Assembly (NCBI GenBank): GCA_035532035.1
Contig: DATKRS010000024.1
Span: 1-64,000 of the forward strand
DNA: 64,000 nt
DNA from: Candidatus Dormiibacterota bacterium
GTDB lineage: Bacteria; Vulcanimicrobiota; Vulcanimicrobiia; Vulcanimicrobiales; Vulcanimicrobiaceae
Reading direction: 5' to 3'
Part shown: positions 43,421-61,299 of the stretch, piece by piece
Numbering within the stretch: the stretch's first letter is position 1
How the letters are laid out: each line of letters begins with the position of its first letter
Notes under the pieces: model-generated
What the model was told of the DNA's origin: nothing
The model's input: only the letters and a program-made list of their open reading frames with translations
Databases searched by the model: none
Position numbers and translations under genes: made by a program

Positions 43421-44087
43421 TCGCGACGCACGCGTGCGCGCGCTGCTGCCGCTCGTTCGCCGCATCGCGCGGCGGGTTCATCGCGTGATTCCCCGCGCGG
43501 ATCTCGGCGACTTGATCGGCGATGGAAGCGTGGGCCTCGTCCGGGCGGTCGACGCGTACGATCCGTCGCGCGGTGTGACGCTCGAGTATTTCGCGCGCAA
43601 GCTCATCGTCGGTGCGATGCTCAACGGCTTGCGCCGGCTCGACTCCGTACCGGAGCGCGTGCGCCGCACCGCGCGCCTCGGGGAGCGCGAACGTTACACG
43701 CTTGCCGTGATGCACGGTACGGTACCATCGACGCGCGAGATGGCGCGCCGCTACCCCGGGTTCGAGCGAGCCGAATGTGCTGCGTATCGCTCGCTCGCGC
43801 TCTCGCTCGACGCGCCGCTGCCCCTCGGAGAGCGCCTGACGCCCGACGCCGGGGCAGATCCGGCGTGCCTGACGGCCGACAACGACGAGCGCGCCTATCT
43901 GCAGTCACTCGTCTGCGCGCTTCCGGAGCGGCAGCGCCGCCTGCTTCTCGCGCACTACTATGGCGCGGAGTCGCTGCGCCGCATCGGCGCTGCGTGGAAC
44001 ATCTCCTCGCAACGAGCGTCGCAGATACATATCGCGGCGATCGCGCGTCTGCGCAAGGCGTTTTATGCTGCGTCGCGTCGAGTCTGA
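43413..44087 (+). CDS. sigma-70 family factor, FliA/WhiG-like
   Basis: The 224-residue sigma factor has region 2 at RIARRVHRVIPRADLGDLIG, DGSVGLVRAVDAYDPSRGVT, LEYFARKLIVGAML. A region-3-like middle follows (TVPSTREMARRYPGFE). Region 4 is LPERQRRLLLAHYYGAESLR with RIGAAWNISSQRASQIHIAA. The YFARKLIVGAMLNGLR form and the location behind flgF-flgG-flgJ indicate a flagellar (FliA-like) sigma factor that could direct late flagellar genes. It overlaps its neighbours on both sides. Confidence 0.88.
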   Translation: MPDRDARVRALLPLVRRIARRVHRVIPRADLGDLIGDGSVGLVRAVDAYDPSRGVTLEYFARKLIVGAMLNGLRRLDSVPERVRRTARLGERERYTLAVMHGTVPSTREMARRYPGFERAECAAYRSLALSLDAPLPLGERLTPDAGADPACLTADNDERAYLQSLVCALPERQRRLLLAHYYGAESLRRIGAAWNISSQRASQIHIAAIARLRKAFYAASRRV

Positions 44088-44373
44088 CGATGCCCTCGAG
44101 CGCGGGGACCTACGCGCGCTCGCGCCGCGCGAGAACGCTGCAGTACCGTCGCTGCAGCTCGACGCGGACGCGCACGCCGAGCTTCTGCCGCACGGCCATC
44201 CGAAGTGGGTGCGCGACGGCGTCGCGATATCGTCGCGCGCGCGCGAGCTGCTTACGCGGGTTCGGCCGGTCGTCGTGCGCGTGCTGCACTTCTGGGATCA
44301 CGGCGTACGCGCCATTCTCGTCAGCGGCCGGCGGGTGCACGTCGATCCCAGCGGCTGCTACCGAACCGAGTGA
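44065..44373 (+). CDS. hypothetical protein, 102 aa, end of flagellar run
   Basis: The gene starts at ATG 44065 within the last codons of the sigma factor. The product has a charged N-terminus (RRVESDDALERGDLRALAPR) and a C-terminal beta-rich segment (VVVRVLHFWDHGVRAILVSG, RRVHVDPSGCYRTE). I recognise no family. The overlap and shared direction suggest co-translation with the sigma factor, possibly as an anti-sigma or flagellar accessory protein, but nothing in the sequence shows this. Confidence 0.55.
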   Translation: MLRRVESDDALERGDLRALAPRENAAVPSLQLDADAHAELLPHGHPKWVRDGVAISSRARELLTRVRPVVVRVLHFWDHGVRAILVSGRRVHVDPSGCYRTE

Positions 44374-44376
44374 AGG

Positions 44377-44401
44377 GGGTTCTTACGGCGGGTTCTTACG
44401 G
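44377..44401. repeat. two direct repeats upstream of RHH-protease module
   Basis: GGGTTCTTACGG occurs at 44377-44388 and again at 44390-44401, separated by one base. The pair lies directly before TTGACC (44402-44407), a candidate -35 box for the RHH gene. The 13-base spacing, just over one helical turn, would place bound proteins on the same face. It may be an additional regulator site or the trace of an insertion junction after the flagellar run. Confidence 0.6.
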
Positions 44402-44431
44402 TTGACCGAGTGGATGCTAACATGTTAGCAT
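44402..44431 (+). promoter_or_regulatory. promoter with 18-bp palindromic operator
   Basis: ATGCTAACATGTTAGCAT at 44414-44431 is a perfect inverted repeat of nine bases per arm. Upstream is TTGACC (44402-44407); TAGCAT (44426-44431), inside the right arm, can serve as -10 at a spacing of 18. Repressor binding would cover the -10 box. The next gene encodes a protein with a ribbon-helix-helix-like N-terminus, so autorepression is the natural inference. A transcript starting a few bases later would be almost leaderless at ATG 44440. Confidence 0.7.
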
Positions 44432-44439
44432 CGGATGAC

Positions 44440-44838
44440 ATGAACGACAGCGAGACGCAGCTCGGGCTTCGTAAGTTTCCGCGGAGGCTCGCGCGAGAGG
44501 TAAAGAAGGCTGCGGCTGAACGAGGCATCACGTTGACGCAGTTCATGGTCGCGGCGGCGACCAATCAACTTCGCGGTCGTCGCTCACCGAGCGTCAACGC
44601 GGAACTCGAACGAGACGTTGCTTGGTACGACCGCCACCGAAAGGCGTTCGAGAAGGAGTATCCCTTCGGGATGAACCTCGCAATCGTCGGTCAGAAGGTG
44701 GTCGACTGCGACGAGGATGTCTGGGACCTGTCGGAGCGGCTAAGTAAGAAGTACGGGCGCCGGCCGATTTTTATGCCGCGCATTGGCGAGATGCTGCCCA
44801 AGGTCATGACCGTGAGATCCCCGCGATTCGTGCGATGA
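44440..44838 (+). CDS. RHH-like regulator with DUF5678-like C-terminal domain
   Basis: The 132-residue protein starts with TQLGLRKFPRRLAREVKKAA followed by AERGITLTQFMVAAATNQLR, a ribbon-helix-helix pattern (basic strand, two helices). The second half (VAWYDRHRKAFEKEYPFGMN, LAIVGQKVVDCDEDVWDLSE, RLSKKYGRRPIFMPRI) resembles DUF5678: helix, then AIV-x-x-x-VV, then helix, then PIF strand. The palindrome just upstream is its likely operator. Its stop overlaps the protease start (ATGA). The layout looks like an antitoxin/partner plus effector pair. Earlier in-frame ATGs at 44413 and 44422 would place the start within the operator. Confidence 0.65.
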   Translation: MNDSETQLGLRKFPRRLAREVKKAAAERGITLTQFMVAAATNQLRGRRSPSVNAELERDVAWYDRHRKAFEKEYPFGMNLAIVGQKVVDCDEDVWDLSERLSKKYGRRPIFMPRIGEMLPKVMTVRSPRFVR

Positions 44839-45203
44839 GCGTACCGTACAGCGACGACTACGAGCCGCCTGCACCCGCTTTGGACATCGCCATTGTGTCG
44901 CCAAATAACTGCGCCGGACGCGTGCTCAGCAGGGCGCTTGTTGACACCGGATCCGACGGCACAATTCTGGAATGCGGGATCGCCGCACAAATCAGTCTGC
45001 CCTTCCTCGGGTACATTCAAGTAAGAGGCATCCACGGTCGATCGGAGTACGCTCCCGTTCTACGCGCAATCATCGAAATGCCCCCGTATCGATTCGAGAC
45101 GATCGTTGCAGAGCTTGGCGGAGAGACGATACTCGGCCGCGACATCCTGAACCGGCTTTCGCTACGCCTCGACGGGCCGAAGCTGCAGCTATCGGTGTCC
45201 TAG
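44835..45203 (+). CDS. retropepsin-like aspartic protease
   Basis: The 122-residue single-domain protein has SRALVDTGSDGTILECGIAA with the Asp-Thr-Gly of aspartic proteases near residue 37, a flap-like segment (IHGRSEYAPVLRAIIEMPPY) and the C-terminal ETILGRDILNRLSLRLDG, the usual LGRD-x-L end of bacterial and retroviral retropepsins. One domain provides one catalytic Asp, so a homodimer is expected. It has no signal peptide, so it is probably cytosolic. It is translationally coupled to the RHH/DUF5678-like gene. Substrate unknown; the partner protein itself is an obvious candidate. Confidence 0.8.
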   Translation: MSVPYSDDYEPPAPALDIAIVSPNNCAGRVLSRALVDTGSDGTILECGIAAQISLPFLGYIQVRGIHGRSEYAPVLRAIIEMPPYRFETIVAELGGETILGRDILNRLSLRLDGPKLQLSVS

Positions 45204-51822: not shown

Positions 51823-52326
51823 ATGGCACGGGCCGATGGATGGCGCGAGGATCGCTTCTGGCGATCGACGGGGTACAGGGGGCACGCAAAGCGCTTTCGC
51901 CGCGGGGCGCTCAAACTCGTCATGCTGAAGCTGCTCTCGGAGCTTCCGAGGCACGGCTACGATCTGATTCGCGCATTTCGCGAGCAGGGTTGGAGTGCCG
52001 GCGCGGGGTCCGTTTATCCGCTGCTCGCGTTTCTCGAATCCTCGGGGTACGTGACGAGCCGCCAGGAGGGCGACCGCCGCACCTATCAGGTCACCGAAAA
52101 GGGGCGCACGCTGCTCGAAGACCGTGCCGCCGACGTCGCGTCGTTCTTCGAAGCGGTCTCGCAGAGCCGGGAGGAACCGGGCGATGAGTTGCAGGACGCG
52201 CTGGAGCGGCTCGGCAGCGCGGTGGAACAGCTCGCCGGACATGCAAAGGACGAGACGATCGCGCGCGCGCGCGATCTCCTCGATCGGACCCGCAAAGAAA
52301 TCTACACGCTTCTCGCACAGGAGTAG
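51823..52326 (+). CDS. PadR family transcriptional regulator
   Basis: The 167-residue regulator has an N-terminal extension, then the winged helix: RRGALKLVMLKLLSELPRHG, YDLIRAFREQGWSAGAGSVY, PLLAFLESSGYVTSRQEGDR, RTYQVTEKGRTLLED. This is the PadR_N signature (G-x-VYPxLxxLE-x-xG). A helical C-terminal dimerisation part follows. It most likely represses its own operon through the palindromes upstream and responds to a drug or metabolite exported by the MATE gene five bases downstream. Confidence 0.93.
   Translation: MARADGWREDRFWRSTGYRGHAKRFRRGALKLVMLKLLSELPRHGYDLIRAFREQGWSAGAGSVYPLLAFLESSGYVTSRQEGDRRTYQVTEKGRTLLEDRAADVASFFEAVSQSREEPGDELQDALERLGSAVEQLAGHAKDETIARARDLLDRTRKEIYTLLAQE

Positions 52327-57965: not shown

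Positions 57966-61299
<3,334 letters not shown>

Follow-up and report, generated by a model that had tools for sequence, protein, structure and literature searches.

Coupling of a retropepsin-like protease to an antitoxin-like DUF5678 protein in Candidatus Eremiobacterota and other bacterial phyla: a candidate self-repressing two-gene module

A genome of Ca. Eremiobacterota (Vulcanimicrobiota) carries a small cassette in which a predicted DNA-binding protein with a DUF5678-like domain (gene 1) is followed by a retropepsin-like aspartic protease (gene 2), and the coupling of DUF5678 with a retropepsin is real and widespread, being found in several phyla. The likeliest reading of the cassette, to which we give an even chance, is a self-repressing protease-inhibitor pair resembling a type II toxin-antitoxin (TA) system, in which the retropepsin would take the place of the toxin.

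The cassette occupies positions 44377-45203 of the window (the whole 64,000-nucleotide stretch of DNA analysed), with its features listed in Table 1. Its two genes overlap by ATGA (44835-44838) and it forms a patch of lower GC content (59.4%) than the 5 kb on each side (65.3% and 68.9%), both as described in the initial annotation. Its left neighbour is a small conserved gene that follows a flagellar/sigma cluster, while the right neighbour encodes a purine nucleoside phosphorylase (PNP), with purine/glycolysis genes on that side. The small left-hand gene (43960-44373), immediately 5' of the cassette, is kept in the related genomes G001, G003, G004, G005, and G006.

Table 1. Features of the cassette, in window coordinates.
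Feature	Position	Strand	Basis or remark
Two 12-bp direct repeats GGGTTCTTACGG	44377-44401	+	Copies at 44377-44388 and 44390-44401, offset 13 bp
Candidate -35 TTGACC	44402-44407	+	Sequence; TTGAC at same position in L004, L005, L006
20-bp perfect palindrome GATGCTAACATGTTAGCATC, candidate operator	44413-44432		Retained, or altered symmetrically, in 4 relatives
Candidate -10 TAGCAT	44426-44431	+	18-bp spacer from -35; within right arm of palindrome
Gene 1, 132-aa RHH + DUF5678-like partner	44440-44838	+	Stop codon included
RHH domain, residues 3-48	44446-44583	+	AF2 model against CopG
DUF5678-like domain, about residues 58-120	44611-44799	+	Pfam match of homologues
C-terminal RSPR motif, residues 126-129	44815-44826	+	R126, S127, P128 invariant in genus/family
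Gene 2, 122-aa single-domain retropepsin-like aspartic protease	44835-45203	+	ATGA overlap with gene 1
Catalytic DTG, residues 37-39	44943-44951	+	D-T/S-G kept in most homologues
GRD of ILGRD motif, residues 101-103	45135-45143	+	Sequence motif

The N-terminus of gene 1 had been called RHH-like, and the AF2 model of the protein (mean pLDDT 85) bears this out, its residues 3-48 aligning with CopG (Z 6.6, rmsd 2.2, 45 residues), Arc (Z 6.4), KacA (5.9), and TacA2 (5.9), and also with AtaR. A profile of 26 gene 1 homologues matches CopG-family chains (6.7e-6) and the antitoxin EndoAI (0.0026). Gene 1 is predicted from this to possess the DNA-binding domain of an antitoxin family, which is in favour of the TA-like reading. 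The C-terminal part had been described as DUF5678-like; gene 1 alone scores 12.8-13.1 bits, under the curated Pfam cut-off of 23.2 bits (PF18929), yet 20 of the 22 aligned homologues match the domain (best 1.2e-11). No known fold for DUF5678 was prominent among the Foldseek-ranked chains. The protein ends with a conserved RSPR motif.

Gene 2 has the DTGSDG and LGRD motifs (the latter within ILGRD) by which it had been identified as a single-domain aspartic protease, and so shows the features of the retropepsins (clan AA, family A2), namely D-[TS]-G, hydrophobic-G-R-[DN], and a single domain. Its own match to the Pfam family gag-asp_proteas (1.4e-4) is under the cut-off of that family, while RVP and gag-asp_proteas are matched by 25 of 26 homologues, and the family profile matches retroviral proteases in the PDB with values down to 8.4e-13. 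The clan AA aspartic protease family TIGR03698 is matched by 18 of the 26 proteases; gene 2 itself, at 25.9 bits, misses the curated cut-off of 57.35 bits. Of 59 proteases, 55 keep D-[TS]-G and two others come close to it with DPG and DLG; the majority are thus probably catalytically active, which favours the TA-like reading. At locus L061/L106, GSG replaces the catalytic DTG beside a normal RHH-DUF5678 partner, possibly marking a dead protease.

Orthologous gene 1-gene 2 pairs are present in five other genomes of the genus/family, and a scan of 84,980 genomes for distant homologues yielded 20 more distant proteases, including representatives from Chloroflexota, Myxococcota, Cyanobacteriota, Verrucomicrobiota, and Planctomycetota. 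A DUF5678-like gene lies immediately upstream of 19 of these, the twentieth having a different small partner gene. Across the 20 whole genomes holding the distant proteases, with DUF5678 counted over its cut-off and retropepsins as strong matches, 42 of 55 DUF5678 genes are directly followed by a retropepsin on the same strand, and DUF5678 precedes 48 of the 56 retropepsins; these are not general rates, as the genomes were picked for holding the protease. The two genes are thus neighbours in many genomes, so that the rare adjacency elsewhere which the initial annotation named as grounds for refutation is not observed. Their order is conserved, with the antitoxin-like gene first, close spacing, and a bicistronic arrangement, as in type II TA systems. 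This conserved adjacency argues for the TA-like reading, as do the multi-copy genomes (up to 12 DUF5678 and 14 protease matches in one) and the orphan antitoxin-like genes which were found.

The link is looser across 201 Chloroflexota genomes sampled evenly, in which about a dozen DUF5678 matches lie within proteins of 517-594 aa and roughly half of the small DUF5678 proteins adjoin a retropepsin. The presence of DUF5678 in unrelated large proteins speaks against the TA-like reading. Individual arrangements of the domain were also seen. In L067 (1051-2751, reverse strand, G151) it is N-terminal in a 567-aa protein, by eye a CCA-adding tRNA nucleotidyltransferase; in L079/L060 (G165) it follows in frame a by-eye aspartate-semialdehyde dehydrogenase and is itself followed by a retropepsin gene, representing a fusion or read-through; and in L075 (1009-2241, G153) it sits between response-regulator-like and C-terminal domains, with no adjacent protease.

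Upstream of gene 1, the 12-bp direct repeats and the TTGACC hexamer of the initial annotation are both present. The repeats are not conserved in relatives carrying the full cassette and are therefore probably incidental. A perfect palindrome over the presumed -10 had been given as 18 bp; it is present, but its true length is 20 bp. Its sequence occurs once in the window, and 100 shuffles gave no match to it within 3 mismatches. However, the GC-rich window contains three perfect 20-bp palindromes, and 9 of 30 simulated windows contained one of at least 20 bp, so that length alone is weak evidence. With its length unremarkable and the direct repeats unconserved, the case therefore rests on comparison. 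The two other 20-bp palindromes, both GC-rich, lie at 52257-52276 and 58226-58245.

Relatives L004 and L005 have ATGCTAACATGTTAGCAT at the position of the palindrome (18 bp identical), while in L006 both arms are altered together by a symmetrical base change, giving ATGTTAACATGTTAACAT. In another genus (L008/L042) the site reads TGCTAGCGT-t-ACGCTAGCA, and upstream of the Myxococcota homologue L077 it reads GACAACAGAGCTAACA-gt-TGTTAGCTTTGTTGTC, sharing the half-site GCTAACA/TGTTAGC with the window palindrome. This conservation, more than length, is what speaks strongly for the palindrome, a putative operator. Among the distant homologues an upstream inverted repeat is clear only in L077 and L070 and weak in L093, with no clear one in most others. 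L004 and L005, as read from the sequence, have TTGAC followed by TAGCAT in the right arm at a 17-bp spacer; L006 keeps TTGAC, with TAACAT as its right-arm hexamer. The candidate operator covers the candidate -10 and so overlaps the promoter, and this conserved arrangement with its one symmetrical change favours the TA-like reading, while the restriction of obvious upstream inverted repeats to a minority of distant homologues counts against it. The most likely start of gene 1 is the ATG at 44440, just 8 nt beyond the -10, and in the relatives this distance is about 8 to 12 nt; with so short a gap, the gene 1 mRNA may be leaderless.

The N-terminal domain of the partner is RHH in most cases (RHH_1/RHH_5/FitA-like). 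It is of the Phd/YefM type in the partners of L052, L082, and L190 (48 bits in L190, over the cut-off), DUF2281-like in L080 (and in L195 as judged by eye), and AbrB-like, by eye and with no recognition by Pfam, in L062, L187-L189, and L193. On the protease tree, in which many branches are weak, the partner type changes at least five times among the classified partners. As judged from these sequences, the DNA-binding domain of the partner is swapped between lineages, and the antitoxin-typical nature of the domains involved argues for the TA-like reading. The initial proposal of a regulatory or TA-like cassette fits with these swapped domains and with the candidate operator, and apart from its defence component that proposal is for the most part borne out. 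The tail of the partner is also of interest, with SP[RKH] present in the last 45 residues of 28 of 48 protease-adjacent DUF5678 partners versus 1 of 13 others (Fisher p 0.0013, kinship ignored), while all seven partners without DUF5678 have an SPR, SPH, or TPR version. This persistence of the tail in DUF5678-less partners favours the TA-like reading, and the SPR motif is the best candidate for a protease contact.

Members of the genus either have or lack the cassette at a single fixed site. The same flanks enclose it in G005 and G006, flanking genes are just 26 bp apart in G001, unrelated sequence lies between the same flanks in G004, and remnants are kept in G007; such presence and absence is in keeping with a TA-like pair. 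G003 has a deletion of the promoter, operator, and RHH, yet its protease is 90% identical, which counts against that reading. From too few changes to permit a judgement, dN and dS between the window and G003 are 0.046 and 0.112 for gene 2 and 0.057 and 0.116 for the gene 1 remnant. Head-to-tail copies of TTGTCATCCCGAGCGAAGCGAACGCAGTGAG were observed between gene 2 and PNP in G005 (L158).

Occurrence on plasmids or phages is usual for type II TA systems, though not strictly defining. The plasmid, phage, and viral-contig collections searched gave no cassette matches, and a search of viral contigs with the gene 1 and gene 2 alignments confirmed nothing; the lack of plasmid or phage copies in these searches speaks against the TA-like reading. 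An anti-phage role within a defence island, also raised in the initial annotation, finds no support here either, nor in the flagellar/sigma and purine/glycolysis flanks. PADLOC analysis of 91 flanking ORFs from the 20 distant loci, made with no background control, gave few defence-like matches, mostly to generic families such as DndA. The PADLOC candidate PDC-M08B has a short partial match to gene 2 (E-value 4.7e-5) and this one model is weakly matched by 15 of 26 proteases (best 1e-7), whereas the partner genes match no PDC-M08 model; no paper naming PDC-M08B was found in the literature search.

According to the TA-like reading, gene 1 would dimerise through its RHH domain, bind the promoter palindrome, and shut off its own operon, while DUF5678 and the SPR tail would bind the protease and keep it inactive, whether by preventing the active homodimer from assembling or by occupying the active-site cleft. 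A drop of gene 1 relative to the protease would derepress the promoter and leave free protease to form an active dimer, which might then cut cellular proteins, resulting in slower growth or a changed cell state. The cassette resembles type II TA systems with RHH or Phd/YefM antitoxins (KacAT, TacAT, AtaRT, EndoAI) in being a small two-gene operon with the partner first, in the antitoxin-family N-terminal domain, the candidate palindromic operator over the promoter, and the short C-terminal tail motif, as well as in its several copies per genome and patchy occurrence. It differs in having a retropepsin as downstream gene, in the lack of plasmid or phage copies among those searched, and in its cyanobacterial fusions. 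The TA literature searched gave no instance of an aspartic protease as toxin. That the cassette represents a new TA class, with a retropepsin toxin, a DUF5678/SPR-tail antitoxin, an interchangeable DNA-binding half, and inhibitor-protease fusions in cyanobacteria, is put forward tentatively, as somewhat doubtful.

DUF5678 was found in 27 of 194 cyanobacterial genomes, mostly within one protein of 205-230 aa that runs into a retropepsin (VDSGAE ... LLGREVVF) and has no DNA-binding domain. A Foldseek search with a fusion model confirms the protease fold; docking between the domains was unreadable from this model, its linker (about residues 70-85) having a pLDDT below 50 and its pTM being 0.54. 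The linker carries an FR[ST] stretch, related to SPR, immediately before the protease. Since these fusions have no DNA-binding domain, the two domains appear able to work together in the absence of TA-type transcriptional control, which counts against the TA-like reading. Both domains being joined in one chain is instead in favour of its main rival, that of a partner-dependent regulatory protease with no toxin, envisaged as a processing enzyme of narrow specificity for which gene 1 would serve as activator or substrate-delivery adaptor and as transcriptional sensor, by analogy with RimB/RimK. We consider this rather unlikely, although it deserves to be taken seriously. The bacterial A2 peptidases characterised so far tend to involve additional proteins, and RimB is functionally coupled to its operon partner as well as acting on it (PMC11957791). 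The Pseudomonas retropepsin RimB (PMC11957791) and the bacterial retropepsin RloA (PMC12239564) resemble gene 2 in having an operon partner; unlike in the cassette, these partners include the ATP-grasp proteins RimK and RloC and no DNA-binding protein. A solely chromosomal occurrence, as indicated by the negative plasmid, phage, and viral searches, also suits a regulatory protease, whereas swapping of antitoxin-type domains, patchy multi-copy occurrence, and orphan antitoxin-like genes are more usual for TA systems than for adaptors.

Retroviral proteases process themselves immediately before the protease domain, and the position of the FR[ST] stretch of the fusions, just ahead of the protease, would suit a self-cleaving switch. 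Here the protease would inactivate the repressor by cutting gene 1, perhaps close to its SPR tail or between RHH and DUF5678, much as ImmA does with ImmR. Pairs of the Zn-protease COG2856 (ImmA) with Xre repressors have been predicted, with ImmA/ImmR cited (Makarova et al., 2009; PMC2701414), and the cassette is like these in having a protease gene beside a DNA-binding regulator but differs in protease class, fold, and regulators. However, SPR lies in the last few residues, so a cut there would not separate RHH from DUF5678, and the alignment has no recognisable shared cleavage site between these two domains; such a switch is judged improbable. Chance neighbours or an annotation artefact, with which a 20-bp palindrome of a length not rare in a GC-rich window would be compatible, are refuted by the adjacency counts in several phyla and by the fusions, and are given virtually no credence.

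Bacterial retropepsins are common and few have a known role. In the open-licence literature, no paper joining retropepsins or clan AA with toxin-antitoxin systems was found, and DUF5678 is named in one unrelated paper, with no function described. The pairing of a retropepsin with an antitoxin-like repressor, for which no published description was found, may constitute a novel type of protease module that can be switched. If the TA-like reading is true, DUF5678 would gain a role as protease partner or inhibitor, toxin-antitoxin architecture would gain a protease among its effectors, and the cassette would provide a natural, genetically encoded inhibitor of enzymes resembling HIV protease.
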